A stretch of 41,374 bases of DNA from positions 1-41,374 of the forward strand of contig MGZK01000023.1 of assembly GCA_001802125.1 (NCBI GenBank), given 5' to 3'. Position numbers and translations under genes: made by a program. The stretch comes from Geobacteraceae bacterium GWC2_55_20. GTDB taxonomy: Bacteria; Desulfobacterota; Desulfuromonadia; Geobacterales; Pseudopelobacteraceae. Shown here piece by piece: positions 3 to 20,108 of the stretch. Within the stretch, counting starts at the first letter, position 1. Each line of letters opens with the position of its first letter. The notes below the pieces were generated by a model. It made no database searches. It was not told the DNA's origin and worked only from the letters and a program-made list of their open reading frames with translations.

Positions 3-914
3 ATCCAGAAGGTTGCCAACAGCCAGAGTAGCGTACTGGTGCTAGGGGAAAGCGGAACCGGCAAGGAGCTGGTTGCCCGCTCGGTACACACCTGCAGCCC
101 CAGGAAGTCAAAACCGTTTGTCGCCGTCAACTGCGGCGCCATACCGGAAAACCTGATCGAAAGCGAGCTGTTCGGACACAAGAAGGGCTCGTTCACCGGG
201 GCAGTCGTTGATCGCCCCGGTCTGTTCGAACAAGCCGAAGGGGGTACGCTGCTGTTGGACGAAATCGGAGAGTTGCCACTGCTGTTGCAGACCAAACTGT
301 TACGGGTGTTGCAGGAGCGTGAGTTCAAGCGGGTGGGGTGTACCCAGACCCGCAAGACCGATGTCCGCATTATCTGTGCTTCCAATCGGGACCTGGAGTC
401 CCAGGTGCGTGAAAATTCGTTCCGGGAAGACCTGTTCTACCGCATCAACGTGGTGCAGTTGCTGATGCCGCCGCTGCGGGAGCGGATCGAGGATATTCCG
501 CTCCTGGTGGAACACTTTTGCCGGAAGTACCATGCCGGCGGGCAGGCTGCTCCGGCGACCGTAGCGCCAACCGCACTCAAGGCGCTGATGAACTACCAGT
601 TCCCAGGGAATATCCGCGAACTTGAAAACTGCATTGAGCGCAGTCTCATTCTGGATCCGCAGCTGATTTCGGAAAACAATCTTCCAAAGCAGATGCTGGT
701 CGCTAGAACGGCCTGTCTCACTGCCGATATAGAAATTCCGGAAGAGGGCATGCTGCTTGAGCCGCTGCTGGAGGAGTTGGAGAAAAAATATCTGCTCAAG
801 GCGCTGGAAAAAACCGGGGGAGCCAAGAAAAAGGCCGGGGAACTGCTGGGGATGTCTTTCCGGTCATTCAGGTATCGTTTGGCGAAGTTTGGGCTGGATG
901 TCGGGGAAGAGTGA
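3..914 (+). CDS. pilR: PilR, sigma-54-dependent response regulator of pilin genes (3' part; starts before the window)
   Basis: The frame is open from the first base, so the gene begins upstream and its receiver domain is not visible. The 303 visible residues hold a complete AAA+ sigma-54 activator core: Walker A GESGTGKE, the sigma-54 contact loop as GSFTGA (canonical GAFTGA), Walker [12 protein letters not shown], and the sensor II region [16 protein letters not shown]. The C-terminus is a Fis-type helix-turn-helix ending [15 protein letters not shown], a signature typical of PilR. In this family the protein is phosphorylated by PilS, oligomerises on DNA and uses ATP to open RNA polymerase-sigma-54 complexes at pilA. 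Two pilA genes with sigma-54-like promoters follow, which supports the PilR call over a generic NtrC paralogue. An insertion sequence now starts about 15 bp after the stop, between pilR and pilA. Confidence 0.93.
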
Positions 915-2054: not shown

Positions 2055-2070
2055 TGGCACGGTAGCTGCA
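2055..2070 (+). promoter_or_regulatory. Sigma-54 promoter of the first pilA gene
   Basis: The sequence reads TGGCAC-GGTAG-CTGCA. It has the invariant GG and GC pair separated by exactly 10 bases (GG 2056-2057, GC 2068-2069), a perfect -24 box, and one mismatch in the -12 box (consensus TTGCA). The predicted start near 2081 gives a short leader holding the GGGGGAG ribosome site at 2089-2095 and the ATG at 2100. A pilR gene upstream makes RpoN/PilR control likely. Confidence 0.75.
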
Positions 2071-2099: not shown

Positions 2100-2312
2100 A
2101 TGAAAGCAGTTCGACATAAAATTGCCGGCTTTACTCTGATCGAATTGTTGATCGTGGTGGCAATAATAGGGATATTGGCCTCAGTTAGCATCCCTATTTT
2201 TCGCGACTATACATTACGAGGCTATAACTCAGCAGCGAACTCGGATTTAAGAAACTTCAAGTCTCAGATGGAAGCTGCTTTTGCCGAACAGCAATCATAT
2301 CCTGTATTTTGA
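2100..2312 (+). CDS. pilA: Type IV pilin PilA-N, first tandem copy
   Basis: This encodes a 70-residue prepilin with a 10-residue leader (MKAVRHKIAG) cut by prepilin peptidase before Phe1. The mature part starts FTLIELLIVVAIIGIL with the conserved Glu5. The mature chain is only about 60 residues, ending YPVF, as in Geobacter PilA-N rather than the roughly 150-residue pilins of Pseudomonas. Aromatic positions corresponding to those of Geobacter PilA are kept (F1, F24, Y27, Y32, F51, Y57), with extra F43 and F60. The ATG at 2100 is chosen because GGGGGAG precedes it and the leader then has the canonical length; an upstream in-frame start would lengthen the leader by 8 residues. It differs from the second copy by Ser18/Ser20 and RDYTLR in the mid-helix, so the two are diverged paralogues. 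No PilA-C gene follows it directly. Confidence 0.92.
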   Translation: MKAVRHKIAGFTLIELLIVVAIIGILASVSIPIFRDYTLRGYNSAANSDLRNFKSQMEAAFAEQQSYPVF

Positions 2313-2506: not shown

Positions 2507-2719
2507 ATGCTTAACAAAATCAGAAACAGAAAAGGTTTTACTTTGATTGAGCTGCTGATCGTTGTTGCGATTATCGGCATCTTGGCTGCTGTTGCTATTC
2601 CGCAGTTCTCGGCATACCGCATCAAAGGTTTTAACTCGGCAGGAACTTCGGATCTTCGCAACTTCAAGACCCAGATGGAATCATCTTTTGCTGATAATCA
2701 GGTCTATCCGACACTCTAG
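2507..2719 (+). CDS. pilA: Type IV pilin PilA-N, second tandem copy (closest to the canonical Geobacter pilin)
   Basis: This encodes a 70-residue prepilin with leader MLNKIRNRKG and mature start FTLIELLIVVAIIGILAAVAIPQFSAYR, strongly resembling Geobacter sulfurreducens PilA-N. Glu5 is present; aromatics are F1, F24, Y27, F32, F43, F51 and Y57, so position 32, a Tyr in G. sulfurreducens, is Phe here. The mature chain is 60 residues and lacks the usual globular domain; in such Geobacter systems that part is supplied by a separate PilA-C protein, here encoded 38 bp downstream. The start at 2507 is chosen for its GAAAGGAG site and canonical leader, with 2477 as a possible second start. In Geobacter this pilin is assembled on the inner-membrane pilus machinery and is linked to pili or secretion of electron-transfer filaments. 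Confidence 0.95.
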   Translation: MLNKIRNRKGFTLIELLIVVAIIGILAAVAIPQFSAYRIKGFNSAGTSDLRNFKTQMESSFADNQVYPTL

Positions 2720-2757: not shown

Positions 2758-3072
2758 ATGAATAAGACTTTAATAAAAATATGTTTTGTTGCCGCTCTGA
2801 TGATGGCTGCAGGTTCAGCCTATGCAAGCACCAGTATTACTGGTACGACGGTTATTGGTGGTGGTACATTTTCCCCATCAAATAAAGTGAATATTGGTGT
2901 CACTTCAACTTCTACAAATTATTCGGCTCAATCAAAACACTCGTCTGGTGACCGCCAGATGGGTACTAACAATACTGATCCAAAAATGTACTGGTCTGCT
3001 GCAGCTATCGGTGCAGTTGCTACTACACCTGCTAATGCAACTGTTGATTATTCCGGATGGACTTCCCTCTAA
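2758..3072 (+). CDS. PilA-C-like secreted pilin partner
   Basis: This is a 104-residue protein with a Sec signal peptide (MNKTLIKICFVAALMMAAGSAYA, likely cut after AYA) and an approximately 81-residue mature part. By position (directly after short pilA-N) and by its start STSITGTTVIGGGTFSPSNKV it resembles the GSU1497/PilA-C partner that forms a heterodimer with PilA-N in Geobacter. The mature part is very rich in Ser and Thr (27 of 81), so it offers many O-glycosylation acceptors right beside a glycosyltransferase locus. The ATG at 2758 follows GAAAGGAG at good spacing; an upstream in-frame TTG at 2740 would spoil the signal peptide. The gene is closed by an intrinsic terminator. The family call rests on motif memory and context, not on a search. 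Confidence 0.78.
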   Translation: MNKTLIKICFVAALMMAAGSAYASTSITGTTVIGGGTFSPSNKVNIGVTSTSTNYSAQSKHSSGDRQMGTNNTDPKMYWSAAAIGAVATTPANATVDYSGWTSL

Positions 3073-3100
3073 TATTGTTGGTATAATAAGATGTATAGTA

Positions 3101-3128
3101 AGCCTGACATCTGTCAGGCTTTTTTTTT
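3101..3128 (+). terminator. Rho-independent terminator after the PilA-C-like gene
   Basis: AGCCTGACA (3101-3109) pairs with TGTCAGGCT (3112-3120), directly followed by a T tract to 3128. Full pairing would leave a two-base loop, so 7 bp with a 6-base loop is more realistic. It separates the pilin operon from the giant GT41 gene, which begins only about 50 bp later. Confidence 0.82.
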
Positions 3129-3180
3129 GAGATTATTCTCTTTTACCACATCTTTTTTTGCCTTTAAACTGAACAACTAT

Positions 3181-6100
3181 ATGACTAAAAAACTTGTTTT
3201 ATATGATGAATTAACGGTTAATGAAATGTGCCGAAAAGCTTCTATGTGCGTGGATAAAGGTGATTTTATTCAGGCGGAAGCAATTTATCGTGATATCATC
3301 TCACGAATTCCTAATCATCACCGGTCACTTCATGGACTTGGTGTTGTCATGTACAGAGGCAGAAAAGATACAGAAGAGGCTGTCAGGTTGGTGCAGCAAG
3401 CAATACAACTTAAACCGGATTATCTTGATGCATTTTTCAATTTAAGAAAAATGCTGAATGAACTGGGACGCTTTGTCGAAGCTGAGGAGTGCTACCAGAA
3501 AGCCATGGCGTTAAAACCGGATTCTTCTGTTGTCTGTCTGGGGCTTGGAAATCTCTGCTGCCAAAAGCAAAAGTTTGAAGAAGCTGTTTCGTTCTATCAG
3601 AAAGCAATCGAATATTCACCGGATGCAAAGATTTATGTGGCAATGGGAAAAGCACTAAGGATGCTTTTTCGTATTGAAGAAGCTGTTAATGCATTCCACA
3701 GCGCTTTAGCTATACAGTCAGACTGTGGAGAAGCTCTATTAGGTCTTTCAATGAGTTATGAGATCAGTTCGAATTATGTTGCAGCAGAAGAATATGCTCA
3801 AAAAGCTCTTAAACTGTTGCCAACGTCTGCCGACTGTATGCAGGTGATGGCAGTGCTAAAGAGAGCATCTGGCAAGGCTACTGAGGCAGTAGACTGGTAT
3901 AAGTCAGCGGTAAAAGTTGGCGGAGGTCTGCCAGTATTTTCAAACATGCTGTATGCCATGAATTTTTCGACGTATTTTTCTCAGGATGAAATCCTTTATC
4001 AAAGTCGTATATGGGAAAGAAAACTTACATTAAAGACAGACTCGAATGTTTTTCCTGCCCGTCAGCCAGGGAAACTCCGGATTGGCTACATCTCCCCTGA
4101 TTTCAGAAAGCATGTTGTGGCCTTTTTCTTTGAGCCGCTTTTAGCAGCTCATAATCATAACCGTTTTGAAATCCACTGTTACTCAAATGTACTAACGCCA
4201 GACAATGTAACGGAGCAATTAAAAGGATATGCTGATTACTGGCATGATATCCGCTCGTTTTCGGATGAAGAGGCGATAGCAAGAATACGTGATGACCGGA
4301 TCGATATTCTAATTGACCTGTCCGGGCATACGGCAGATAACCGGTTGGGAATATTTGCTCATCGAGCCGCCCCGATACAAATAACTTGGCTCGGCTATCC
4401 GAATACTACTGGCATATCAGCGATGGACTATAGAATTACTGACGCTGTTGCCGATCCTGAAGGGTTTAGCGATGAACAACACTCTGAACGGCTGATGCGG
4501 CTTCCGGATTGTTTTCTATGCTATCAGCCGCCAAAGAATCCTCCTGACGTTGCGTCAACGCCATTACTTATCAATGGGTTTGTTACCTTTGGATGTTTTA
4601 ATTATCCGGCCAAGATCACGCCAGAAGTCATAGCCATTTGGAGCAATATACTTTTGTCAGTGCCCTTTTCCCGACTATTGTTGAAATCGCAATCATTCTG
4701 TGATCCAGTTCTAGCCAAAAACTTTACTGCGTGCTTTGAAGCTCACGGAATAGCAACTGAACGTATTATGTGTGTTCCGGCAAAGGAATCCTTCTCAGAC
4801 CATCTTGCAACCTACAACCATATCGATATTGCTTTGGATCCCTTCCCTTACAACGGAACAACCACAACCTTTGAGGCCCTTTTTATGGGCGTACCTGTTA
4901 TTACTTTAAGGGGTAATCGTCACGCTGCAAGGGTGGGATCCAGCATTCTAACAAATCTGGGGGCGACTGAACTGATCGCGGAGACAGTTGATGATTATCT
5001 GGCTTTATCTGTTTCTCTTAGTTCTGACGTCAAACGTCTTTCAACATACCATCTAGAACTTAGGAATCTGCTTGTTTCTTCTGCTCTCTGTGATTCCGCT
5101 CGTTTTGCAGATTCTATTGAAGAAGTATTTCGTACTGCCTGGCAAGCTTACAGTCATGCGCACCCTGTATCTCCGCCCCACCTTGATGGTCAATTTCTTA
5201 AGGCCCAAAAGTATTTCACACGAGGTGAATATGAGCAGTCGAGAAGTATATATGAGGACATACTGTCGGATCAGTCTGATAATCCAAGGGCGCTTCATGG
5301 AATGGGGGTCGTTTGTCATTGGCTGGCTGATTCGGAATCGGCAATTCGTTATATTTCCAGGGCAATTGAATTAACCACAAATTATCCTGTCGCATTAACG
5401 AACCTGGGGGGTGTTTACAAGGAAACAGGGCGGGTAAGGGAAGCAATAGATTGTTTCAGGAAGGCACTGGCCTCTGATCCATGCTTTTCAGAAATCCATA
5501 GTAATATTTTGATGAACATGCAGTATTTGTCAGAGTATTGCTATGACGACGTCTTGAAGGAATCACTTCGCTGGTCCGATTTACATGCAAGACTACCATG
5601 TCAACAGCTTTCCAACAAAAAAATCAATTCAATAAAATCAGGTAAAATCAGGATTGGTTTCGTATCTGCTGATTTCAGAAAACATCCGGTAGGTTTTTTT
5701 GTTATTCCTTTCTTTTCTAACTATGATCACGAACAATTTGAACTGTTTTGTTATAGTAACAGTAATTGTTCTGATGAAATTACAAAACAAATCATCTCGC
5801 TGGTTGATATATGGCGGGTGATTGAAGGAATGCCTGACAGGATTGCTTGGCAGATGATACATGATGACGCCATTGACGTTCTGGTTGACCTTTCTGGTCA
5901 CACAGCCGGAAATCGGCTTATTTTATTTTCTATGAGACCTGCTCCAGTACAGATGACCTGGCTTGGTTATCCCAATACGACTGGAATATCAGCAATGGAC
6001 TTTCGAATAACGGATGCTGATGCAGATCCAGTGGGGGCTAGTGAGGCAAATTATTCTGAACAACTGATCCGTTTATCAAATTGTTTTCTCTGTTATCAGC

Positions 6101-9100
6101 CTCCAATTGATCCACCGGATTTTTCTCCACCACCAATTATTCGTAACGGATTTATTACTTTCGGATGCTTTAATCAACTACCTAAAATTACATCTGAGAT
6201 TATTAACTGCTGGATCGCTATACTCATGGCAGTTCCAAATTCACGCTTTCTGCTGAAGTCGCAATCATTCCGTGACCCTGATTTCGCCGCCAACTTTTCT
6301 GCATGCTTTGGATCTAATGGTGTTACCTCTGACAGGATTATATGCATTCCAACCAAAGTGTCTTTTAATGACCATCTTGCAACCTACAATGAAATTGATA
6401 TTGCTCTTGATACTTTTCCTTACAACGGAACCACAACAACTTTTGAAGCTTTGTTTATGGGGGTGCCTGTAATTTCATTACGGGGCAACTGTCATGCTGG
6501 CAGGGTGGGTGCCAGTATTCTCAACAATCTTGGGCTGGCTGAGCTCATTGCTGAGACGCTTGAAGATTATTTGTCGATAACTATTGTTCTTAGTAGAGAC
6601 ATTCAGCGGCTTTCTACATATCACGCTGGTTTAAGAGAGTTGCTTGTTTCCTCAGTGCTTTGTGATGCTGCCCGGTTTGTAGATTCTTTTGAAGATATGT
6701 TTCGCACAGTCTGGCAAAAATACAATCACTCGAACCAAGCAACGTTCTCGCAAACCAATTTACGGAAACCGACAATAGTTGCTTTATACGAAAATGAGTT
6801 CGAGCTTGAAAATCGTTGCAATGAAGCTGCACAACTTGTTGTGTTGGGAAAACTTAAAGAGGCAGAAGCTTGTTATGAAGCTCTTCTTGCAGATTTTAAT
6901 GGTTATCCTCGGGCACTTCATGCTCTTGGGGTAGTTCGTTACCGTATAGGAAATATTGAAAATGGGCTCGAGTTGGTGCGTAACGCCCTAGTACTCAAAC
7001 CTGATTATATCGAAGCATTACAAAGCCTGGGAAAGATGCTGAATGAGCAGAAATGTTATCTGGAGGCATCCAACTGTTATCGTAGAATCTTATGTCTGAA
7101 ACCGGATGACCAGAATTCCCTGCTTTTGATGGCCATAATACTTTCCAAGGCAGGAGAACGCGAAAAAGCGATCAATGCATATCAAAGGCTTGTTGCGGCC
7201 GCTCCCGAACATTTCGATGCCATCTTCAATCTTGGGCAGCTTCAGATTGATGCCAAGCAATTCGATCAAGCGGAAAAGCTATTACACCGTGCAAGACAGT
7301 TGTCGCCTGATAATGCAGGTGTGTTGTTAGTGCTAGGTAATCTTGCATTAAGCAAAAGAGATTTTAAAACTGCTGAAATATTTTATCTTAATGCCTGCAA
7401 GATAGAGCCGGATTGTGTTGAACTACAAACCAATCTTGGTTATCTCTACACTGAGTTAAAGCATATAAAGAAAGCTATAACACATTCTGATCGTGCTGTT
7501 AAATTGAAGCCTGATTTTGCTCTTGGCTATGTAAATCTTGGCTGTGCGTTGGAAAAATCAGGCCAAATCTATGAGGCTGTTGAAGCATACAAAACAGCTA
7601 TTAAATTTGATCCGGCATTGCATAAAGCTCATTCCAGTTTAATTATGCTTATGCATTATTTACCAGAAACCACTCCGGAAGATATTTTTCAAATGAGCCT
7701 GAATTGGAACTCGTTGAATGCGGAATGCTTCAGCAATCTTTGGAGTAGAGGTAATTGCCAATATTCACAAGATAAAATAATTAGAATAGGTTTTATCTCT
7801 CCAGATTTTCGTCGTCATCCAGTGGCATATTTTATTCAGTCGTTTTTTGAGTTTCATAATCGTGATGAATTTGAAATTATCTGTTACTCTGATGCGGTTT
7901 ACGAGGATGATTTTACACAAATACTGCGTAATGCATCAGATAGTTGGAAAACTGTGATTGATACGGATGATTATGTATTAAATGAAGTTATACGTGAAGA
8001 TCACATAGACATTTTAGTCGATTTGGCGGGACATACCGTAGGTAATAGACTTAGGGTTTTTGCAATGAAGCCGGCTCCAATTCAGGTGACTTGGGCCGGT
8101 TACGCTGGAACGACCGGTTTATCGGCAATTGATTACCTTATTTCTGATCGTTTTCAGTCACCACCAGATGCAGAAGAATATTCCAGCGAGCAAATAATCC
8201 GTATGCCTGATGATTACATAAGCTACTGTCCGCCGCAATATGCTCATGAAGTTTCATCATTGCCCGCTTTATCAAACGGTTATTTAACATTCGGTGTATT
8301 TAATAATTTGGCTAAGGTGTCAACTGAGGTTCTCTGCGTGTGGGTAGAGATTCTGAATAAGGTTGAAGGGTCTCGCCTCTTCATCAAAAATCCATCTTTT
8401 GATGATCCATTTACTGTGAAACGTTATCTGGAGTTTTTCAAATCTCGCGGTATTTCTGCTGAATTAATAATAACTGAAGGACTGAGTTCGCCTGCAGAAA
8501 TGTTGGACCGATATTCACATGTTGATATCCAACTGGATACATTTCCTTACTGCGGCGGACTTACAACTCTTGAGTCTCTTTGGATGGGAGTTCCAGTTAT
8601 AACCTTGTCAGGTAATTTGTTTTCTTCTCGACACTCACTTTCCCACCTGATGAATGTAGGTTTGGATGAATACGTTGCCTCTTCTAGGGAAGAGTACGTT
8701 GCAATTGCTTGTCAACTGGCTGGAGACCTTGAAAGACTTTCAGTTTTGCGAACAACTCTTCGCCAAAAAATGGCAGATTCTCCTTTATGTGATGGAATTA
8801 CTTTTACTAAAAATATACAGGAGGTTTTTAGAAAAATATGGGAAAAAAACGGTTCAGTAGTAAAATCTGAAGCACTTGATATCGGTGCTATTGAACAGCC
8901 TGTAAAGATTATTGAAAAACAATTGTCAGGTGATCACATTACATTTAATGATCAGGGAAACATCCACTCAGATAATGGGGATTTCGATTCTGCAATTAAA
9001 TGTTACATAAAGGCGTTGGATCTAAAGCCAGGATATGTTGAGGCATATTTCAATATGGGGCTTGTGTATAACAAAACTGGAAATCTTGAAGAAGCAATCC

Positions 9101-12100
9101 GTTTATTTGATCATGCCATCGCTACCTCGCCTGATTTTGCCGCACCATTTATAAGCTTGTCAAACCTATATTTATCTGTTGGAAAGCTTGGAGAGGCGAT
9201 TGCAATTTGTAATAAGGCACTTGAAAATATATTTGATTGTCCGGAAATCTATAATAACCTTGGAAGCGCTTACATGAAGTTGGGCAATTTTAATGATTCT
9301 CTGGCTGCATTCAGGAAAGCGCTTGAATTAGACCCGAACTATCATCAGGTCCGAAGTAATATATTATTTCTTTTGCATTCTATTTATCAAACCACAATAC
9401 ATGAGGTTTTTGAAGAAAGCCGCAATTGGGATATTAGGCACGGTAGATTAGAGAAGTATTCTCATATTCCAGAAAAACTCGTTGGTAGTTCTTTGCTCCG
9501 CATAGGTTTTATCTCTCCTGATTTCAGATCACATCCAGTAGGCTTTTTTATTCAATCTTTCATGATGCTGCATGACAGAAACAGCTTTGAGATATTCTGC
9601 TATTCAGATGTTATTTCTGAAGACCATATAACTAAACGTATCTGCGAGTCAGTCGATGTCTTCCGTGATATCCATGAAATTGATGATGAAGAGGTTTCTG
9701 AAATTGTATTCAGGGATAATATAAATATTCTGGTTGATCTCGCAGGTCATACAAATGGCAATAGATTGAGAGTCTTTGCTATGAAACCGGCACCGGTTCA
9801 GGTGACATGGGCCGGATATGTGGGGACCACAGGCCTTTCCACAATGAATTATCTTATTTCGGATCGTTTTCAGTCACCGGAAGGTTCAGATGCGTTTTCT
9901 ACAGAAACTATCATCAGGATGCCGGATGATTATATCTGCTATATGCCACCTGAAGATTCCCCTGCAGTAAGTCCTCTACCAGTGGACCAAAACGGATATG
10001 TCACATTCGGCAGTTTTAATAAACCGTCAAAAATATCCGATGAATCGATAGCTTTATGGTCTGAAGTATTGAAACTGGTAGACGGCTCGAGGTTATTTCT
10101 CAAAAACGCATCGTTTTCCGACAGCGATGCGATTAAGCGATACACCCAGATGTTTTCCCGTTTTGGAATCACTAATGACAGATTGATTTTTGAAGGTCCA
10201 GCCTCGCACTATGAGATGCTTGCCAGTTACGGTAAAGTGGATATACAGCTAGATACATTTCCATATAGTGGTGGACTTACCACGCTTGAATCACTTTGGA
10301 TGGGGGTGCCTGTAGTTACTTTACCTGGCAAACTGTTTTCATCAAGACATTCTTTAAGTCATCTTATGAACGCTGGATTGGGTGAGCTAGTGGCATCAAC
10401 GCAGGAGGAGTACGTAGCTATTGTATGCAAACTTGCTGTTGATCTGAACAGACTTTCAACCCTGCGAACTGGGTTACGTCACCGCTTGATCAGTTCCCCT
10501 ATTTGTGACGGGAGTAAATTCACAAATAACCTGCAGAGGGTATTTCGTTGGATGTGGCACAGTTGGAGTGAAAGTGATTTCAATGTTCCTCTAGTGTTTT
10601 GTGGTGAAAATGAAATTGTAAAATTACAGGAAGATGAGGACTTTAAATCAGCTTTGTTTACCGATGATTTTTCAAAGGGGCTTTTGTGTATCCAATTAAA
10701 TGATTTTCTAGGAGCAGCGGAGATGTTTGAGGCAGTTCTGGTTAATGATCCAGACAATGCTGATGCTCACAACAATCTTGGAATTGCCTATTTTGAAATT
10801 GGTTTCAGGGATGATGCCAAAGATGAATTCAGGACAGCGACTAAAATTGCACCCAACCATGCAGAAGCCTGGAAAAATCTTGGAAAAGCAAACAGGGATA
10901 CTGGCGGTAATTCTGAACTGTCTGCTCGATGTTTCAGAAAGGCTCTTTCCATTAATCCTTATTTTGATGAAGCCTGGATGATGTTGGGCGCTTCACTGCT
11001 GGATAGTGGGAGGAGCGCCGAGGCAGTAAATTGTTTCAAAAAAACTTTGGAACTGAATCCGAAGAATTGTGATGCTCACTCAAACTTACTGTTTGCCATG
11101 AACTACATTGCTCAAATATCTCAGGAAGATCTTTTCTTGGAAAGCCTGAAGTGGAATGAGATTCATACATTCGGCATTGAAAGAATCCAGCCAAGTTCTA
11201 AAATTTTTCCACACCTAAACCCCAACACTGATTGGGAGGGGAATAAGCTGCGAATCGGTTATGTTTCTGGGGACTTTAAACATCATCCGGTTGGGTATCA
11301 TCTGCTTCCAATTCTTGCATCGTATGACAGAAATAAATTTGAATTGTACTGCTATGCGACAATTTGTGAGCAGGACGACATGACAGAGAAAATGCAGGGA
11401 TATGTTTCCTGTTGGAGGGACATTTCAAAACTAACCGATATTGAGGCTGCAGCTAGAATAATCGAGGATAGGATAGATATTCTTGTTGATCTTGCTGGAC
11501 ATACAAAGGGGCATCGATTGCGATTATTTGCGATGAAACCTGCACCGATTCAGGTGTCATGGCTCGGTTATTTCAATACTACAGGAGTTAATGCAATAGA
11601 TTATCTGATTTCTGATGAAACAACCATTTCGGTGAATGAGGAACATTGGTTTTCTGAAAAGATTATTCGCCTTCCCGAAAGCCGTTTTTGTTATTCGCCT
11701 CCGGAATATGCTCCACCAGTAGTTAAACCGCCTGTACTTAAGAATGGTTATATCACTTTTGGTTCATTCAACAATATTGCCAAGCTGACACCTGCAGTTA
11801 TCGAATTGTGGAGTAAAGTCCTTATTTCAATTCCGGATTCCAAATTGATTATAAAATGGTCCAACCTCGGAAGAAAGAAAGAAAGAGACCGATTGTTGAA
11901 GAGCTTCAGGTGTCATGATATTTGTGATAACCGGCTGATATTACGTGGAAAGTCATCACATGCAGATATGTTAAAGGAATATGGTGATATTGATATTGCA
12001 CTTGATCCCTTCCCGTTTTCTGGCGGCATGACATCATGTGAGGCTCTTTGGATGGGGGTTCCGATTTTGACACTTATGGGAAATAAACCCGCTGGTCGTC

Positions 12101-14382
12101 AGACAGCCAGTTTTTTAAGAACGATTGATTTGCCTGAGTGGATAATATTCTCGCAGGAACAATTTATTGCCAAAGCTAAAGAGACTGCATTCAAGCTTGA
12201 AGAATTAAAAAAGATACGGTTTGAATTACGTGCTAGGATGATGGCATCGACTCTCTGTGACGGGGCAAAATTTACCAGAAATCTGGAGGAACTCTATTTT
12301 CAAATTGAGAAAGAAAGCACTGATTTGAAAGAAACTACCTCAAAATCTTATAATGATGCTGCGGAAAATATAATAGTTGATGCAAATATGAGAGCAGCCA
12401 TGCTGTACAATGATGGCATTGATCAGATGGAAGCTGGAAACTTTGATAAAGCTACCAGGCTTTTTGAACAGTCCGTGTCTTTGAATCCAGGTTTTGCAAT
12501 GGCTTACAATAACCTGGGTATTATCAAGATGCAAACTTGCGAAATTGATGAGGCAAAAAATGCATTTGAATTGGCAATTTCTGCTGACTCATCTTTCGCA
12601 GAAGCTTACTATAATCTTGGATTAACATTTGAAAAGAAAAAGTATTTCCATGAAGCCATAGAGTGCTTTGAGAGCTCTATCAGGCTGAACTCTGAATATG
12701 GAGAGGCCTATCTGGAAAAAGGCAATGCTCTGCTGGCTTTGAAAGAACCATATCATGCTCTGGAGTGCTATGAACAAGCATCTGAACATATACAGGAATC
12801 AGCCATAATATCTAACAATATCGGATCAGCGTATCATCAGCTTGAGGATATTAATAATGCTGAACTGTATTTTAGAGAAGCATTGTTTTATGACCATGAA
12901 TATGCTCCGGCATATATCAATCTGAGTATGCTTTTCTGTGAAATGGGCTTGGTAACTGATGCGGAGCGAGTTGCATCTGAGGGGCTTGGATATTTTCCTG
13001 ACAATACAGATCTCTTGTCAGTACATGCCAGAACTATGACAGCCCAGTCAAGGATACATGAAGCATTGGAGGATTTGCATAGAGCACTTGAAGTAAATCC
13101 TCAGAATGCTGCCTTGCATAGCAGCTTAATATATTCACTTCAGTATCTGGATGGTTCCTTTATTTCAGCTATTTCGGCCGAACAAAAAAAGTGGGCTGAA
13201 CTGCATGTTCCAGCAGATAATCATAAACTGACATTCCAAAATGATCCACTCCCTGATCGTAAGCTGATAATCGGATATGTGTCTCCCGATTTTTGCAGGC
13301 ACCCAGTCGGGTACTTTATATTGCCGATTCTCCAGATGCATAATCGGGATGATTTTGTTGTTATCTGCTATTCAGACAGGACGAAGTCAGATATTCAAAC
13401 CTTGATGCTGGAGTCGTATGCTGATGTTTGGCATAATACTTCAGAATGCACAGATCAAGAACTGTTTGAACTCATTTCAAACGATAAAGTTGATGTATTG
13501 GTAGACCTTGCGGGGCATACAGCTGGAAACCGATTGACATTGTTTGCCAGAAAAGCTGCACCAATACAAATTTCTTGGCTCGGCTACCCCAATACCACTG
13601 GTATACCAACAATGGATTATCGTATTACAGATGCAATCGCAGACCCTGAAGTTGCAAGTGAAAAATGTCAAAGTGAACGACTGATTCGTCTTCCGTATGG
13701 CTTCCATTGCTATCAACCTACTGAAAATTCAAAGGGTCTTGGTCCACCACCGTCACATATCAATGAATATATCACCTTCGGTTGTTTTAACAATATCTCC
13801 AAAATCACACTTGAAGTTATTGACCTTTGGAGCCGTATTCTCCTGGCAGTTCCAGATTCCCGACTTTTGCTGAAGTATAAGTCATTTATCGACTCTGATT
13901 TTGCCAAGAACTATAAAATGCATTTTGTTAAGCGAGGAGTTGAAGAGGAGCGTGTTAAGTGCGTTCCGGCAATTGATTCATTCACTGATCATCTTGAATT
14001 GTATCGTCAGATAGACATCGCACTTGATCCGTTTCCCTACAATGGCACCACAACTACTTTTGAAACCCTTTACATGGGCGTTCCGGTGATTGCATTACGT
14101 GGTAATTGTCACGCAGGACGTGTAGGGGCTAGTATCTTATGCCATCTTGGACTTGAAGAGCTTTTGGCAGAAACAGTGGATGAATATCTGGATGTCACGG
14201 TTACACTCTGTAATGATATGAAGCGACTTTCAGATTATCATTTAAATCTCAGGAAGCAGCTGTCTGCTTCTCCATTTGTGGACGCGGAAAGATTTACTAT
14301 TACTCTTGAGAATGCCTATCGCAAAGCTTGGCATATTTACTCAGCCAAATGTGCTGGGATTGATATAATTCAGAAACTATAG
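3181..14382 (+). CDS. Giant protein of six tandem TPR + O-GlcNAc-transferase-like (GT41/SPINDLY) modules
   Basis: This encodes about 3733 residues. Six catalytic domains of about 350 residues are each preceded by TPR repeats; the domain motif [RI]IG[YF][IV]S begins at residues 300, 824, 1535, 2107, 2691 and 3363. Each keeps the His of the S-x-DF-x-x-H motif (311, 835, 1546, 2118, 2702, 3374), matching catalytic-region His498 of human OGT, and the Lys of FGxFN-x-x-x-K, matching Lys842 that binds UDP. Such enzymes move a sugar from a nucleotide donor to Ser/Thr of proteins in the cytoplasm; TPRs bind the acceptor. Most family members have one catalytic domain. Domains 1, 2 and 6 share LGYPNTTG and FPYNGTTTT; 3 and 4 share AGYxGTTG and GGLTT; 5 is intermediate. 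I chose ATG 3181 because the earlier in-frame ATG at 3091 lies inside the upstream terminator; no good ribosome site is visible, so the start is uncertain. Donor and acceptor are unknown. Low GC relative to the core genes. Confidence 0.93.
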   Translation: MTKKLVLYDELTVNEMCRKASMCVDKGDFIQAEAIYRDIISRIPNHHRSLHGLGVVMYRGRKDTEEAVRLVQQAIQLKPDYLDAFFNLRKMLNELGRFVEAEECYQKAMALKPDSSVVCLGLGNLCCQKQKFEEAVSFYQKAIEYSPDAKIYVAMGKALRMLFRIEEAVNAFHSALAIQSDCGEALLGLSMSYEISSNYVAAEEYAQKALKLLPTSADCMQVMAVLKRASGKATEAVDWYKSAVKVGGGLPVFSNMLYAMNFSTYFSQDEILYQSRIWERKLTLKTDSNVFPARQPGKLRIGYISPDFRKHVVAFFFEPLLAAHNHNRFEIHCYSNVLTPDNVTEQLKGYADYWHDIRSFSDEEAIARIRDDRIDILIDLSGHTADNRLGIFAHRAAPIQITWLGYPNTTGISAMDYRITDAVADPEGFSDEQHSERLMRLPDCFLCYQPPKNPPDVASTPLLINGFVTFGCFNYPAKITPEVIAIWSNILLSVPFSRLLLKSQSFCDPVLAKNFTACFEAHGIATERIMCVPAKESFSDHLATYNHIDIALDPFPYNGTTTTFEALFMGVPVITLRGNRHAARVGSSILTNLGATELIAETVDDYLALSVSLSSDVKRLSTYHLELRNLLVSSALCDSARFADSIEEVFRTAWQAYSHAHPVSPPHLDGQFLKAQKYFTRGEYEQSRSIYEDILSDQSDNPRALHGMGVVCHWLADSESAIRYISRAIELTTNYPVALTNLGGVYKETGRVREAIDCFRKALASDPCFSEIHSNILMNMQYLSEYCYDDVLKESLRWSDLHARLPCQQLSNKKINSIKSGKIRIGFVSADFRKHPVGFFVIPFFSNYDHEQFELFCYSNSNCSDEITKQIISLVDIWRVIEGMPDRIAWQMIHDDAIDVLVDLSGHTAGNRLILFSMRPAPVQMTWLGYPNTTGISAMDFRITDADADPVGASEANYSEQLIRLSNCFLCYQPPIDPPDFSPPPIIRNGFITFGCFNQLPKITSEIINCWIAILMAVPNSRFLLKSQSFRDPDFAANFSACFGSNGVTSDRIICIPTKVSFNDHLATYNEIDIALDTFPYNGTTTTFEALFMGVPVISLRGNCHAGRVGASILNNLGLAELIAETLEDYLSITIVLSRDIQRLSTYHAGLRELLVSSVLCDAARFVDSFEDMFRTVWQKYNHSNQATFSQTNLRKPTIVALYENEFELENRCNEAAQLVVLGKLKEAEACYEALLADFNGYPRALHALGVVRYRIGNIENGLELVRNALVLKPDYIEALQSLGKMLNEQKCYLEASNCYRRILCLKPDDQNSLLLMAIILSKAGEREKAINAYQRLVAAAPEHFDAIFNLGQLQIDAKQFDQAEKLLHRARQLSPDNAGVLLVLGNLALSKRDFKTAEIFYLNACKIEPDCVELQTNLGYLYTELKHIKKAITHSDRAVKLKPDFALGYVNLGCALEKSGQIYEAVEAYKTAIKFDPALHKAHSSLIMLMHYLPETTPEDIFQMSLNWNSLNAECFSNLWSRGNCQYSQDKIIRIGFISPDFRRHPVAYFIQSFFEFHNRDEFEIICYSDAVYEDDFTQILRNASDSWKTVIDTDDYVLNEVIREDHIDILVDLAGHTVGNRLRVFAMKPAPIQVTWAGYAGTTGLSAIDYLISDRFQSPPDAEEYSSEQIIRMPDDYISYCPPQYAHEVSSLPALSNGYLTFGVFNNLAKVSTEVLCVWVEILNKVEGSRLFIKNPSFDDPFTVKRYLEFFKSRGISAELIITEGLSSPAEMLDRYSHVDIQLDTFPYCGGLTTLESLWMGVPVITLSGNLFSSRHSLSHLMNVGLDEYVASSREEYVAIACQLAGDLERLSVLRTTLRQKMADSPLCDGITFTKNIQEVFRKIWEKNGSVVKSEALDIGAIEQPVKIIEKQLSGDHITFNDQGNIHSDNGDFDSAIKCYIKALDLKPGYVEAYFNMGLVYNKTGNLEEAIRLFDHAIATSPDFAAPFISLSNLYLSVGKLGEAIAICNKALENIFDCPEIYNNLGSAYMKLGNFNDSLAAFRKALELDPNYHQVRSNILFLLHSIYQTTIHEVFEESRNWDIRHGRLEKYSHIPEKLVGSSLLRIGFISPDFRSHPVGFFIQSFMMLHDRNSFEIFCYSDVISEDHITKRICESVDVFRDIHEIDDEEVSEIVFRDNINILVDLAGHTNGNRLRVFAMKPAPVQVTWAGYVGTTGLSTMNYLISDRFQSPEGSDAFSTETIIRMPDDYICYMPPEDSPAVSPLPVDQNGYVTFGSFNKPSKISDESIALWSEVLKLVDGSRLFLKNASFSDSDAIKRYTQMFSRFGITNDRLIFEGPASHYEMLASYGKVDIQLDTFPYSGGLTTLESLWMGVPVVTLPGKLFSSRHSLSHLMNAGLGELVASTQEEYVAIVCKLAVDLNRLSTLRTGLRHRLISSPICDGSKFTNNLQRVFRWMWHSWSESDFNVPLVFCGENEIVKLQEDEDFKSALFTDDFSKGLLCIQLNDFLGAAEMFEAVLVNDPDNADAHNNLGIAYFEIGFRDDAKDEFRTATKIAPNHAEAWKNLGKANRDTGGNSELSARCFRKALSINPYFDEAWMMLGASLLDSGRSAEAVNCFKKTLELNPKNCDAHSNLLFAMNYIAQISQEDLFLESLKWNEIHTFGIERIQPSSKIFPHLNPNTDWEGNKLRIGYVSGDFKHHPVGYHLLPILASYDRNKFELYCYATICEQDDMTEKMQGYVSCWRDISKLTDIEAAARIIEDRIDILVDLAGHTKGHRLRLFAMKPAPIQVSWLGYFNTTGVNAIDYLISDETTISVNEEHWFSEKIIRLPESRFCYSPPEYAPPVVKPPVLKNGYITFGSFNNIAKLTPAVIELWSKVLISIPDSKLIIKWSNLGRKKERDRLLKSFRCHDICDNRLILRGKSSHADMLKEYGDIDIALDPFPFSGGMTSCEALWMGVPILTLMGNKPAGRQTASFLRTIDLPEWIIFSQEQFIAKAKETAFKLEELKKIRFELRARMMASTLCDGAKFTRNLEELYFQIEKESTDLKETTSKSYNDAAENIIVDANMRAAMLYNDGIDQMEAGNFDKATRLFEQSVSLNPGFAMAYNNLGIIKMQTCEIDEAKNAFELAISADSSFAEAYYNLGLTFEKKKYFHEAIECFESSIRLNSEYGEAYLEKGNALLALKEPYHALECYEQASEHIQESAIISNNIGSAYHQLEDINNAELYFREALFYDHEYAPAYINLSMLFCEMGLVTDAERVASEGLGYFPDNTDLLSVHARTMTAQSRIHEALEDLHRALEVNPQNAALHSSLIYSLQYLDGSFISAISAEQKKWAELHVPADNHKLTFQNDPLPDRKLIIGYVSPDFCRHPVGYFILPILQMHNRDDFVVICYSDRTKSDIQTLMLESYADVWHNTSECTDQELFELISNDKVDVLVDLAGHTAGNRLTLFARKAAPIQISWLGYPNTTGIPTMDYRITDAIADPEVASEKCQSERLIRLPYGFHCYQPTENSKGLGPPPSHINEYITFGCFNNISKITLEVIDLWSRILLAVPDSRLLLKYKSFIDSDFAKNYKMHFVKRGVEEERVKCVPAIDSFTDHLELYRQIDIALDPFPYNGTTTTFETLYMGVPVIALRGNCHAGRVGASILCHLGLEELLAETVDEYLDVTVTLCNDMKRLSDYHLNLRKQLSASPFVDAERFTITLENAYRKAWHIYSAKCAGIDIIQKL
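3200..14349 (+). repeat. Six-fold coding repeat: TPR + GT41 modules
   Basis: Approximate modules (TPR start to domain end): 3200-5155, 5190-6735, 6790-8850, 8935-10572, 10660-12318 and 12380-14349. Catalytic parts begin near 4069, 5641, 7774, 9490, 11242 and 13258. The number of TPRs differs between modules: modules 1, 3 and 6 have long arrays, 2, 4 and 5 short ones. Each catalytic part ends in a similar block of the type S-x-LCD-x-x-x-F-x-x-x-[IL]-[EQ]-x-[VML]-[FY]. The units are clearly homologous but well diverged, so this is old duplication rather than a fresh array or an assembly artefact. Confidence 0.9.
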
Positions 14383-14404
14383 TTAGAATTAAGAGATAAT
14401 AAAT

Positions 14405-16846
14405 ATGTCAATGACATGGGAAAAGCTGGACAAGACCGATCCTGCAGAATTGCTACTTATTGACCCGGAACTGGGGAAAAAGTTCCCACCTTTAATACTG
14501 GATTCTTCGATTACTATTGGCATGGCTGCATACGGAAATATGGATACAACTCTCATTGCTTTACGTTCTCTGCTGGCAAGTGTTACCGGAGATTATGAGT
14601 TAATTCTTGTTGATGATGCATCACCTGACAACACAGGAAAATTATTTGAGCTTGTGCTGTATTTACATAAAAATACAAAACTCTTCAGATTCCCTAAAAA
14701 CATTGAATACAGCGGAAGTCTCAATACAATACTCTCCCATGCTTCGGGTAATAGAATTATTTTTCTATCAAATGACATATTTGTTTCTCCTAGCTATATA
14801 AACGAATTGCTGTTTGTTTCAGATGTATATAATGATTCCGGTCTGGTCAGAGGGTGTTCAAATTTTGTGGATAATCGCCTTATTACCCACAATGTCAACG
14901 ACTGCGGTGAACTAAACAATTTCATTGATTTATTCACATATGCCAGGGCTCGATCAGAACGCTATAAGTGCGTTTGGTTTGATGATCCATTTTTGACCGG
15001 TGATGCCTTCCTTATTACTCGCCAACTACTTGAAAAAGTCGGATATCTGGATCGCAGGTTTTTAGGGTACTTTGTGGATCATGATTTGGGTGTGCGTGCC
15101 CGTCAGGCCGGATTTCGTCCCAGGCTTGCTATTGGTGCTTTTGCTTGGCATCAACACCAAGCAAATTTTGATTATCTTCCGAATTATGAAAAACAGAAAA
15201 AACTTGATAGACGTTGGGCACGGGTTTACGAAAATTGGGCTGTTTTTAAGCAGAAATACGGTCTTCCGGCATATATGGGGTATGAGGGAGTTAGAAGAAT
15301 CCCTTGGGATGGATTAGCTCAACTGCAGATGTCTGATTATCCTCCCCCATGTGATAATAGTCGGTTCTGTCTGCCAGTGCTTGAAACCTCTGGATGGCGG
15401 AAATATCAAGTGTCAACAATGTCGGAGCAGGCAAGCAAAACGATGTATTCAGGAAATCTTCTGGAAGCTGAATCAATTTGTTATAAAGCACTTCAGCTTG
15501 AATCTGACAACTCTTCAGTACTAACAACTCTTGGCACTATTCAGGCTTATCAGGGCAAACTTGATGCCGCTATTAAAACGTATCGTAATACATTGAAACT
15601 TGATCCATCAAATATGAAGGCCCATTCAAATCTGCTTTTATGCATGAACTATAATGAAACAAGTTCTCAACAAGCTATTTATCGAGAGAGTAGGATATGG
15701 GAAAAACATCACTTCTCAGCAAAAAAAATGAATTTGCCTGTACGCCTACCACGTTCAAGAATACGGATTGCATATATTTCACCCGATTTTCGTCGCCATT
15801 CTGTCGGCTTTTTTTTATTACCGCTTTTGGAAAATCATGACAGAAACATCTTTGAAATCTACTGTCTGAGCGATACTAAAAAAAATGATGACATGACAAA
15901 AAAGATGTTAGCGCTTGTGGATGGCTGGAGGGATATTTCATTATTGACCGATGATGAAGCGGCAAGTGTGATTTGTGAGGTCGCGCCTGATGTTCTTATT
16001 GATTTGGCAGGCCACACCGGTGAGACAATCAGGCTTGGTCTTTTCACTAGAAGGCTAGCGCCGGTTCAGGTTACCTGGCTTGGTTATCCAAACACTACAG
16101 GTCTTACTTCTATGGATTACCGCATTACAGATGCAATTGCAGATCCACTTGGAGTTTCTGACAAATTGTATAGTGAACAACTTGTAAGAATTGCAGATTG
16201 TTTTCTTTGTTACAAGCCACCTGAAGATGCTCCAGAAATCTCAGTCTTACCTGCCTTGACGAATGGATACATTACTTTTGGTTCGTTTAATATGCTGCCT
16301 AAAATTCAAGAAGGAACGGTCAAGGCATGGTGTCAACTTTTGAATCATATTCCGAATTCAAAATTGTTGTTGAAAAATCATTATTTCCGAGATGATGCTA
16401 CTGTTAACAGAATAGTGGAGCGATTCAAAAAATATGGAATTACCGGTGATCGCTTAATAATAAAACCTTCTGATCCGGATACTAAAACTCATCTCGCACA
16501 GTATGGAAATATAGATGTTGCTCTTGACACTTTTCCTTACAATGGTACCACGACCACCTGCGAGGCCCTGTGGATGGGAGTTCCTGTCATAACATTGTCT
16601 GGTGGCCGTCATTCCTGCAGAGTAGGGGAGAGTCTGCTTGCTGCGGTCGGCATGAGTTGCAATACGGCAAATTCAGTTGAGGAATACCTTGAAAAGGCTG
16701 TTTCTATTGCAAGCAAACTGGACGCATTATCTCATTTACGTTCATGTTTGCGTATGAAAATGAAAGATTCAGTTCTTTGTTCAGCAAAATCATATGCAAG
16801 AAAATTTGAAGCTGTCTTGAATACGATTTGGAATGGAGATATCTAA
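14405..16846 (+). CDS. GT2 glycosyltransferase - TPR - GT41 fusion protein
   Basis: This 813-residue protein has three parts. Residues about 35-275 are a GT2 (GT-A fold) transferase: MAAYGNMDTT, the nucleotide-binding LVDDASPDNTG, a metal-site loop FLSNDI, and the acceptor-side motif GYFVDHDLGVRARQAGF. Residues about 345-415 are TPR-like. From about residue 450 comes a seventh GT41 domain (RIAYISPDFRRHSVGFF), with the key His in DFRRH, Lys in FGSFNMLPK, and FPYNGTTTT, so it belongs to the class of giant-protein domains 1, 2 and 6. It starts 22 bp after the giant gene and is probably in its operon. The fusion suggests two successive sugar additions: a GT41 step on protein and a GT2 step that extends or acts on the same target. 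The acceptor order is inference. ATG 14405 is preceded by a weak purine-rich site. Confidence 0.92.
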   Translation: MSMTWEKLDKTDPAELLLIDPELGKKFPPLILDSSITIGMAAYGNMDTTLIALRSLLASVTGDYELILVDDASPDNTGKLFELVLYLHKNTKLFRFPKNIEYSGSLNTILSHASGNRIIFLSNDIFVSPSYINELLFVSDVYNDSGLVRGCSNFVDNRLITHNVNDCGELNNFIDLFTYARARSERYKCVWFDDPFLTGDAFLITRQLLEKVGYLDRRFLGYFVDHDLGVRARQAGFRPRLAIGAFAWHQHQANFDYLPNYEKQKKLDRRWARVYENWAVFKQKYGLPAYMGYEGVRRIPWDGLAQLQMSDYPPPCDNSRFCLPVLETSGWRKYQVSTMSEQASKTMYSGNLLEAESICYKALQLESDNSSVLTTLGTIQAYQGKLDAAIKTYRNTLKLDPSNMKAHSNLLLCMNYNETSSQQAIYRESRIWEKHHFSAKKMNLPVRLPRSRIRIAYISPDFRRHSVGFFLLPLLENHDRNIFEIYCLSDTKKNDDMTKKMLALVDGWRDISLLTDDEAASVICEVAPDVLIDLAGHTGETIRLGLFTRRLAPVQVTWLGYPNTTGLTSMDYRITDAIADPLGVSDKLYSEQLVRIADCFLCYKPPEDAPEISVLPALTNGYITFGSFNMLPKIQEGTVKAWCQLLNHIPNSKLLLKNHYFRDDATVNRIVERFKKYGITGDRLIIKPSDPDTKTHLAQYGNIDVALDTFPYNGTTTTCEALWMGVPVITLSGGRHSCRVGESLLAAVGMSCNTANSVEEYLEKAVSIASKLDALSHLRSCLRMKMKDSVLCSAKSYARKFEAVLNTIWNGDI

Positions 16847-18103
16847 ATGCCAATTCGTGTTCCCCTGGAAGTCTGCTCCGAATGTCAGCTTGATTGCGCT
16901 CACTGCGCCCATAAGGGAATGAGAGCATATAATCCTAATTACCATCTATCCATGAAAGATCTAGAATTTTTTCTAAATATTACTGAAAAGTCTAATTATA
17001 CAGTTGACCTTTTCCTTCATGGTCCCGGTGAGCCGTTACTTTGGCGGCACCTTAAGGAAGGTGTTGCTATGATGAGAAAATCAAATGCAGTGAATGATAT
17101 TGTTATTACAACTAACGGTATTGCATTACAAAATGCGATAGCTGTTATGAGTGACATCACAAGAATTGAGGTTAGTTCTTATTCAAGTGTAGCAGTAAAG
17201 GAGTTGAAGCATAGTAAAGTCAATTATGTTAAAAAAACGCATTTTGCCAACAAACAGTTTCCTGCAAGAATACCGTGTACATGCATATGTCCTGGACCAA
17301 TGATTTATGGGAATATGGTGTTTCCAGTTTGTGGGCCGTGTGTGTTTGATGCAGTAAAGATGATTGATAAAGATAAAGATCCGCTTACATTGGCAGTAAA
17401 ATTATCTGAAAATTATTTCGACTCTGAAGAGATGTTTGGGAAGATACCAGAATGTGAATATTGCTGGGCAAATTTAAACGCTGAAGTGATTGCTGAGGAA
17501 CACAGGTTGCTGGATAAACACAATCGTTATAGAATCACAACAACTTCACAAGAGGGGTTTATGGACAAAAGGCAAAGAAGGCTCCATATTGGTGGACAGG
17601 AAAAGAATAGCGAATGGGAAATTCTGGATATATTACCTTCACCAATTGTTGATCATATTGCCGAGGCTTCTGACCTCTCTGATTTTGGTGAAGGAGAGTT
17701 TTACGAGGTATATGCATCTCATGTTTTAGAACATCTTGACTTTGCTGATGAGGTATTAAAAGCTCTTGCAGAATGGTATCGGGTTTTGGAGCCTGGTGGC
17801 AGGCTGATGGTGAGCGTTCCAGACCTTGACTGCCTTGCAGAGCTCCTTCTGATCCGTGACCTAACTGTTGGTCAGTGGCAGTTTCTTACCCAAATAATTT
17901 TTGGTGGCCATTCAAATCCTTTTGACTACCACAATTCGGGCTACAACGAAAGATATCTGGAACAGTTATTGAAAATGACTGGTTTCGAAAATATATGCAG
18001 GGTTGAAACTTTCAATATTTTCAAAGATGCAAGTATCATGTTGATTAATGGACGGTATATCAGTTTAAATATGGTTGCAACAAAACCAGTCAATAGCATA
18101 TGA
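16847..18103 (+). CDS. Radical SAM/SPASM-like protein fused to a SAM-dependent methyltransferase
   Basis: The 418-residue protein begins with a radical SAM 4Fe-4S motif (C13-x3-C17-x2-C20, within CSECQLDCAHC). GPGEPLLW resembles the GGEP motif that binds SAM. Further Cys at about 140-205 (CTCIC, CGPC, CEYC) look like an auxiliary cluster region of SPASM type. From about residue 244 a second domain begins with RLHIGGQEKNSEWEILDI and continues with YASHVLEHLDFADEVLKALAEWYRVLEPGG, the pattern of COG4627-like class I methyltransferases. The start ATG directly follows the preceding stop and uses GGAGAT in the end of that gene, so translation is coupled. The stop overlaps the next start as ATGA. 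Substrate unknown; a role in tailoring a sugar or peptide in this glycosylation block is inferred from position. Confidence 0.85.
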   Translation: MPIRVPLEVCSECQLDCAHCAHKGMRAYNPNYHLSMKDLEFFLNITEKSNYTVDLFLHGPGEPLLWRHLKEGVAMMRKSNAVNDIVITTNGIALQNAIAVMSDITRIEVSSYSSVAVKELKHSKVNYVKKTHFANKQFPARIPCTCICPGPMIYGNMVFPVCGPCVFDAVKMIDKDKDPLTLAVKLSENYFDSEEMFGKIPECEYCWANLNAEVIAEEHRLLDKHNRYRITTTSQEGFMDKRQRRLHIGGQEKNSEWEILDILPSPIVDHIAEASDLSDFGEGEFYEVYASHVLEHLDFADEVLKALAEWYRVLEPGGRLMVSVPDLDCLAELLLIRDLTVGQWQFLTQIIFGGHSNPFDYHNSGYNERYLEQLLKMTGFENICRVETFNIFKDASIMLINGRYISLNMVATKPVNSI

Positions 18104-20091: not shown

Positions 20092-20108
20092 AATATGTGG
20101 AGATATGT

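Follow-up and report, generated by a model that had tools for sequence, protein, structure and literature searches.

To our knowledge, the worked-out protein glycosyltransferases of family 41 (GT41) possess one catalytic domain each, as the accounts of SPINDLY and FlmG indicate for these two enzymes. The stretch analysed here (positions 1 to 41,374 of contig MGZK01000023.1, assembly GCA_001802125.1, from Geobacteraceae bacterium GWC2_55_20; 41,374 nucleotides, hereafter the window) contains a gene coding for six GT41 domains in a single chain, each preceded by tetratricopeptide repeats (TPRs). This raises the question of which protein such a chain modifies, and with which sugars. We propose, with reasonable though not high confidence, that it is a cytoplasmic protein glycosyltransferase dedicated to pilins, in which six SPINDLY-type GT41 enzymes are fused at a geopilin locus and use two or more sugar donors. 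The domain content, the catalytic residues, the purifying selection, the fold of the fourth module, the two pocket classes, the conservation of the locus and the positional orthology of the modules were directly computed.

Domain organization of the six-module protein

The longest open frame extends from 3091 to 14382 (+) and codes for 3763 amino acids uninterrupted by a stop. Counted from the ATG at 3181, the protein comprises 3733 amino acids followed by a stop codon. This second start is preferred because similarity to the orthologue of the genome G011 (genomes, loci and database proteins carry the prefixes G, L and P) begins only at the shared MTKK, and because a terminator-like hairpin is located at 3100-3121. 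The Pfam profile Glyco_transf_41 (PF13844) recognizes 12 stretches that correspond to the N- and C-terminal halves of six cores, each over the curated cut-off, and its score over the whole protein is 1117 bits (cut-off 25). The translation contains six copies each of S-x-DF-x-x-H, D-x-x-GHT, FGxFN and LDxFP. The regions before the cores comprise 151 to 338 residues, and every one contains the best stretch of one or more TPR families. An earlier note, written from the letters of this DNA, had described six TPR and GT41 modules in one frame of 3733 codons with TPRs before each core; this description is borne out by the Pfam matches and the motifs, the profile search giving six cores and not fewer. 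The modules are delimited as follows.

3181..14382 (+), six-module TPR-GT41 protein (frame, Pfam, motifs; frame open from ATG 3091)
3181..4062 (+), TPR region of module 1 (Pfam TPR families)
4063..5181 (+), GT41 core M1, class A, H728/Y744/TTT in SPINDLY numbering (profile and alignment)
5182..5634 (+), TPR region of module 2 (Pfam TPR families)
5635..6753 (+), GT41 core M2, class A (profile and alignment)
6754..7767 (+), TPR region of module 3 (Pfam TPR families)
7768..8886 (+), GT41 core M3, class B, M728/Y744/GLT (profile and alignment)
8887..9483 (+), TPR region of module 4 (Pfam TPR families; part of the M4 model)
9484..10602 (+), GT41 core M4, class B, M/Y/GLT (profile and alignment; modelled)
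10603..11235 (+), TPR region of module 5 (Pfam TPR families)
11236..12354 (+), GT41 core M5, class B, M/F/GMT (profile and alignment)
12355..13251 (+), TPR region of module 6 (Pfam TPR families)
13252..14370 (+), GT41 core M6, class A (profile and alignment)

The six cores are pairwise 38-61% identical, and on these values both recent tandem duplication and repeat collapse were rejected. M1, M2 and M6 form one group (52-61%), M3 and M4 share 60% identity and M5 stands apart (38-42%). No tandem DNA repeat was detected by TRF among units of up to 500 bases, i.e. shorter than a module.

Catalytic residues, donor pockets and fold

For Arabidopsis SPINDLY, PMC9715652 reports that mutants of H495 and K665 are dead, that N661, K665 and T748 contact the phosphates, that H728 stacks on the base and that Y744 sets the donor size; the substitution T748A strongly lowers the activity. 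Alignment to this enzyme reveals that the equivalents of D491, H495, N661 and K665 are kept in all six modules, the lysine always being found four residues past the asparagine of FGxFN, so that the His and Lys equivalents are indeed present in every copy, as the earlier note had claimed. The complete pocket set H728/Y744/T748 is found in M1, M2 and M6 (class A, with TTT at 747-749), but not in M3 and M4 (Met728, Tyr744, GLT) nor in M5 (Met728, Phe744, GMT), which constitute class B. The class sequence along the chain is A-A-B-B-B-A. Among 244 cores tabulated from database proteins, H495 is conserved in 242, and residue 665 is Lys in 229 and Arg in 15. The Cys that human OGT has at the position of SPINDLY residue 744 is present in none of the six modules and therefore UDP-GlcNAc would not be the expected donor, following the argument given in PMC9715652. 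Judging from the pocket residues, the donor of M3-M5 probably differs from that of class A.

Compared with the gene of G011, the ratio of nonsynonymous to synonymous substitution rates (dN/dS) ranges from 0.15 to 0.24 across the six cores and from 0.19 to 0.55 across the TPR regions. Each core is under purifying selection, and decayed copies are not supported because the ratio is well below 1 in each of them. From the alignment, catalysis by all six modules is likely. The opinion that all copies are catalytic thus agrees with the retention of H495/N661/K665 and with the purifying selection, but the modules are not equivalent, M3-M5 being devoid of His728 and Thr748.

The predicted model of M4 with its TPRs has a mean predicted local distance difference test (pLDDT) value of 91.5. 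Its best match among solved structures is SPINDLY-GDP (7y4i_B; query-normalized TM-score, TMq, 0.92; root-mean-square deviation 2.1; 34% identity), followed by the OGT of Thermobaculum terrenum (TtOGT), then by human and fly OGT. The sequence of M3 gives the same picture, with E-values of 5e-88 for SPINDLY, 7e-77 for TtOGT, 8e-52 or weaker for OGT and 3e-4 for HMW1C-like proteins. A GT-B fold with a TPR N-terminus is predicted by the model for M4; structure prediction, which the earlier note had proposed for each module, bears out the SPINDLY fold there, and the assignment of the other five modules rests on sequence. Membership in the protein glycosyltransferases of SPINDLY type is supported by these similarities.

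The array in other genomes

The same six-module gene was found in Pelobacter sp. isolate GS8 260 (G011), as an open frame of 3750 amino acids with 89% identity, and the window's own protein is present in the protein database (P0002, from a 149-kb contig). Shorter versions have five modules in G102 (frame of 3044 amino acids), three in G125 and two in G117. The assembly of G117 consists of one contig and that of G125 of two; over 8000 compared bases, the second contig of G125 shows full identity to NC_010815.1, a plasmid of Trichlorobacter lovleyi SZ. An assembly artefact, the doubt left by the earlier note, is unlikely, given the second genome with six modules and the two- and three-module versions in genomes of one and two contigs.

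Over M3-M4, the DNA of the window and that of G011 are about 97% identical; the value is 68-85% from 10.4 to 11.9 kb and about 93% beyond. The low-identity stretch (10409-11933) corresponds to the TPRs and the N-lobe of M5, and lesser dips, to about 80%, occur near 3.8 and 5.6 kb. From this comparison, a cassette-like natural exchange of part of module 5 is likely.

Linkage to geopilin genes

The geopilin operon arrangement (domain 1 twice, then domain 2) is present directly upstream of the GT41 gene, a telling context that the earlier note had overlooked.

2100..2312 (+), geopilin domain 1 (PilA-N), first copy (sequence/profile match)
2507..2719 (+), geopilin domain 1 (PilA-N), second copy (PDB 7tgg_A, E 1.2e-31)
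2758..3072 (+), geopilin domain 2 (PilA-C), with signal peptide; mature part 33% Ser+Thr (PDB 9egp_B, E 2.8e-9 by profile)
3100..3128 (+), intrinsic-terminator-like hairpin and T run, separating the GT41 gene from the pilin genes
18100..20091 (+), GT-C-like membrane protein with C-terminal TPRs; relatives in many geopilin loci

By single sequence, domain 2 matches 9egp_B with an E-value of 0.08-0.13 only.

The linkage was evaluated in 141 genomes of the order with cut-offs of E <= 1e-60 for GT41 and 1e-22 for geopilin, genes being considered linked within 12 kb; at this cut-off 31 of the 141 genomes have no geopilin match, and the GT2-GT41 genes of 817 aa, which lie 13 kb away, fall into the unlinked group. 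Twelve of 16 multi-module genes are found near a geopilin domain 1 match (1.6-4.1 kb apart), against two of 98 single-module genes (Fisher p 2.8e-11, phylogeny ignored). These twelve genes span six genus codes and two family codes, and each of them either lies between domain 2 and the GT-C-like gene or immediately follows the GT-C-like gene. The four unlinked genes comprise two on fragments (G019 and G022, unplaceable) and two that are localized elsewhere (G101 and G075), adjoining FlaF/FlbT genes and, in G101, flagellin too. All 14 placeable multi-module genes therefore stand at a filament locus. Of the two linked single-core genes, one belongs to G056 and lies upstream on the opposite strand; the other is the second GT41 gene of G118. 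The module count varies by species, geopilin-linked loci having 1, 2, 3, 5 or 6 modules.

All twelve geopilin-linked chains contain at least one class B core, and H495, N661 and K665 are kept in 37 of their 37 cores; the two flagellar chains (G101, G075) have class A cores only. Class B was rejected as an exclusive mark of geopilin loci. A tally of 58 genomes with a loose rule gave 11 class A and 15 class B linked cores, and among unlinked cores 20 of class A, nine of class B and 14 others. Three of the nine are on the G019/G022 fragments and six are single genes elsewhere. Two further unlinked single-module genes, those of L273 and L274 (G094 and G095, one genus code), have a B-like pocket, L728/Y744/GLT.

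A relative of the GT-C-like protein is present in 38 of 51 fetched geopilin loci, and the five loci whose pilins are long fusions (L084, L096, L097, L098 and L103) yielded none. Plain Foldseek gave mainly TPR matches for this protein, the GT-C reading coming from a second look; it is perhaps a general geopilin glycosyltransferase.

The domain 2 of the window has 27 Ser/Thr in 81 residues. Across the loci compared, Ser+Thr amount to 31.2% of domain 2 at loci with GT41 (13 loci) and 26.9% at loci without (37 loci; p 0.0065, phylogeny ignored), a comparison in which G019 was dropped (its GT41 gene is on another contig), several loci of one genome were counted apart and two doubtful domain 2 picks are included (L104, 7% Ser/Thr; L096, beside a fused pilin). 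Concerning the donor, GDP-mannose dehydratase (gmd) is over the cut-off in nine of 12 carrier genomes, that of the window included, and below it in G102, G040 and G139 (75% complete). From this gene content, GDP-fucose is a possible donor in the nine gmd-bearing genomes.

Tandem pairs of single-module GT41 genes were sampled in L108, L115 and L118, where they adjoin flagellin, FlbT or FlaF. The tandem or two-module GT41 genes of L108, L115, L118, L271 and L272 are perhaps a FlmG-like flagellin system. At L272 (a FlaF/FlbT locus), a further chain with many transferase domains is encoded at 11316-19463 (-) beside the two-module GT41 gene; this protein of 2716 amino acids combines five GT2 stretches with GT4-type domains and TPRs.

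Number, order and history of the modules

The full-length query was searched, 2185 candidates sharing most words were scored and 96 proteins of 2078-5702 amino acids were taken; cores were counted with a profile built from the six cores of the window, and the counts lean to SPINDLY-like cores. Eight cores were found in P0005, seven in P0010, six in five proteins (P0002, the window's own, P0003, P0012, P0015 and P0024) and five in five others. Six cores in one chain are neither unique nor a record, and the remark that no described enzyme with six GT41 domains was known does not hold as a mark of uniqueness. At 78 named genome loci, which come from the 80 best matches among at least 583 and include some open reading frames clipped at locus ends, 120 frames have one core, 13 two, five three and one six.

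Trees of 111 cores and of 117 cores, from which P0015 and P0024 are absent, pair the modules of the window with like-position modules of its relatives. M1 groups with the first modules of G022, G102, P0004, P0008, P0011 and P0014, and M3/M4 and M5 group with middle modules. In P0010, P0012 and P0017, and for seven of the eight modules of P0005, the clustering instead follows the protein. Those of P0005, P0010 and P0012 are nearly all of class A, and by their place in the tree these sets are a recent expansion; in P0005 (5702 amino acids), seven of the eight cores are a protein-specific expansion. The order was compared in ten proteins, without the near-identical G011 and with subtypes assigned by eye on the tree. 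Of 72 ordered subtype pairs, 68 are concordant; 5000 shuffles gave 70% on average and 86% at most. The exceptions all come from subtype A2, which fills two positions (M2 and M6). At the level of sequence, this shows modules that are old, non-equivalent positional orthologues keeping their order, and common descent alone would give the same agreement.

Proposed mode of action and alternatives

We infer the acceptor, the donors, the cytoplasmic action and the order of events as follows. The TPR helix of each module would hold the substrate, and the chain would capture newly made geopilin subunits, most likely by their Ser/Thr-rich domain 2, unfolded before Sec export. Once captured, the subunits would be glycosylated from two or more nucleotide-sugar donors: M1, M2 and M6 (class A) would bind theirs in a pocket resembling that of SPINDLY/OGT, and M3-M5 (class B) in a modified pocket. 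The GT-C-like enzyme of the same locus probably modifies the pilin separately, across the membrane. HMW1C is a precedent for a GT41 enzyme acting before export, and FlmG, according to PMC7591256, is a precedent for a TPR part that can bring a filament subunit to the GT domain.

Several observations weigh against a pilin-dedicated enzyme. Many geopilin loci have no GT41 gene, which is consequently an optional addition, and in the window the terminator-like hairpin parts this gene from the pilin genes. Some single-module genes without geopilin linkage likewise encode class B cores. The Ser/Thr number in domain 2 does not follow the module number (rho 0.05, p 0.73). Finally, the second pilin gene and the domain 2 gene are 98% identical between the window and G011, whereas the TPR/N-lobe part of M5 is only 68-85% identical; this divergence beside near-identical pilins is not what co-evolution with the acceptor predicts. 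The optional presence and the hairpin, together with the sugar-related genes downstream, are also what would be observed if the chain modified one or more other surface proteins and its adjacency to geopilin reflected co-regulation with surface functions only. We consider this different target unlikely in view of the linkage (12/16 against 2/98, over six genus codes and two families) and of the constant position of the gene next to domain 2 or the GT-C-like gene in the 12 linked multi-module loci. It is still less probable that the GT41 modules help to build a glycan that the GT-C-like neighbour transfers to the pilin in the periplasm: the worked-out TPR-GT enzymes of this kind, FlmG and SPINDLY, act on proteins, and the GT-C-like gene is found without GT41 in many loci.

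If the pilin is the acceptor, the modules could sugar different Ser/Thr residues of the same subunit independently, or act avidly on many copies, without an ordered pathway. The 27 Ser/Thr of domain 2 would offer room for it, plant SPINDLY adds single fucoses (PMC9715652), and most modules of the giants P0005, P0010, P0012 and P0017 form protein-specific clades, as dosage would give. The modules of the geopilin family, however, are old positional orthologues with a nearly fixed order and two pocket classes, and their number does not track the Ser/Thr number, so that we regard this multi-site or dosage explanation as possible but doubtful. Class B modules could alternatively be inactive scaffolds that bind without transfer, since the equivalents of His728 and Thr748 are lost and T748A is so damaging in SPINDLY; we give this little credence, as the residues essential in SPINDLY, H495 and K665, are kept and dN/dS is 0.15-0.24 in M3-M5. 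TtOGT likewise has no His at 728 (Leu by alignment), though the activity of TtOGT is itself not established. Ordered, assembly-line addition of sugars is plausible. Its strict colinear form, in which the module order with at least two donors would write a defined glycan on each pilin subunit and modules would be gained, lost or swapped in fixed slots as in polyketide synthases, seems rather improbable to us. Non-equivalent modules in conserved order, as expected of an assembly line, were found, and common descent alone also yields them. The assembly-line or multi-site glycosyltransferase suggested by the earlier note is compatible with ordered, positionally conserved modules, each of the two being a candidate mode of action.

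Other features of the window

The remaining genes around the locus are the following.

3..914 (+), sigma-54 activator, C-terminal part, cut by the window end (profile match)
2055..2069 (+), -24/-12 (sigma-54) promoter-like site, one mismatch, 30 bp before the first pilin ATG
14405..16846 (+), GT2 + TPR + GT41 (class A) fusion (Pfam, profile)
16847..18103 (+), radical SAM + methyltransferase protein (Pfam)
20097..20726 (+), methyltransferase (Pfam)
20742..22409 (+), PMT_2 membrane protein (Pfam)

The sigma-54 activator is presumably PilR, as in the Geobacter gene order. Two overlapping frames at 978-1930 (HTH_33, DDE_3) encode a transposase between it and the pilin genes; G011 (L058) has the activator directly next to the pilin. 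The promoter-like site is weak, seven such matches being found in the window for 3.5 expected. The core of the GT2-TPR-GT41 fusion groups with L113 (G022) and with the second GT41 gene of G118. For the radical SAM-methyltransferase protein, no NCBIfam model was over the cut-off among the matches listed. A defence role for the two membrane proteins was discarded, PADLOC giving no match. Further downstream, an NAD-dependent epimerase fused to a GT2 domain (Pfam) is encoded at 23371-25410 (-), and a 719-aa frame at 25376-27535 (-) has no Pfam match, overlaps neighbouring frames and may not be a gene. No Rfam match was found in the window.

Comparison with known systems

By title and beginning of abstract, no multi-GT41 chain and no GT41 of a geopilin locus is described among the matches listed, a scope that leaves aside most subscription papers and bioRxiv. 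In their accessible parts, PMC5174107 treats GSU1496/1497 with no mention of glyco-, tetratricopeptide or TPR, PMC3543383 treats split and fused geopilins, PMC9473688 concerns glycosylated OmcE/OmcS and not the pilin, PMC7762298 mentions a PglB elsewhere, and PMC10787695, PMC11934962 and PMC10599522 name geopilin and glycosyltransferases in unrelated places. What is new is the combination of non-equivalent GT41 modules, fixed order, geopilin locus and species-variable count, the module number itself not being unique. If our proposal is true, the chain would constitute a modular route for putting glycans on a protein that needs no lipid carrier, and the geopili of some species would have a species-specific sugar coat with which work on pilus structure and conductivity must reckon. 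If the assembly line is also true, species would alter the glycan by gain, loss or swap of modules in fixed slots, as polyketide synthases do with polyketides. Trichlorobacter lovleyi SZ (G125), with a three-module version at the same locus, makes the question testable.

The closest worked-out analogue is the flagellin O-glycosyltransferase FlmG of Caulobacter: its TPR domain binds flagellin, and the modification of flagellin requires its GT domain (PMC7591256). Both would be cytoplasmic TPR-GT enzymes dedicated to a filament subunit, the dedication consisting here of gene linkage with subunit binding predicted; FlmG has one TPR part and one GT domain and acts on flagellin with pseudaminic acid, whereas the gene of the window has six modules at a geopilin locus. 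Arabidopsis SPINDLY, an O-fucosyltransferase (7y4i), shares the fold (as modelled for M4) and H495/N661/K665, and with class A also H728, Y744 and T748, but it has a single catalytic domain, and class B departs from it at 728 and 747-748, M5 also at 744. Human and Drosophila OGT likewise combine a TPR array with a GT41 core; they are less similar than SPINDLY, and the modules of the window have Tyr or Phe, not Cys, at the donor-size position. TtOGT (5djs) is a bacterial TPR-GT41 without His at the 728 position, as class B, but has a single module, and according to PMC9715652 no O-GlcNAc activity was seen for it in vitro. P0005, P0010, P0012, P0015 and P0024 also have many GT41 cores per chain, but in P0005 (7/8), P0010 and P0012 these cluster by protein and belong nearly all to class A. 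The GT41 N-glucosyltransferases HMW1C/NGT, which act on an exported protein, are the most distant, their similarity being barely detectable (E 3e-4).
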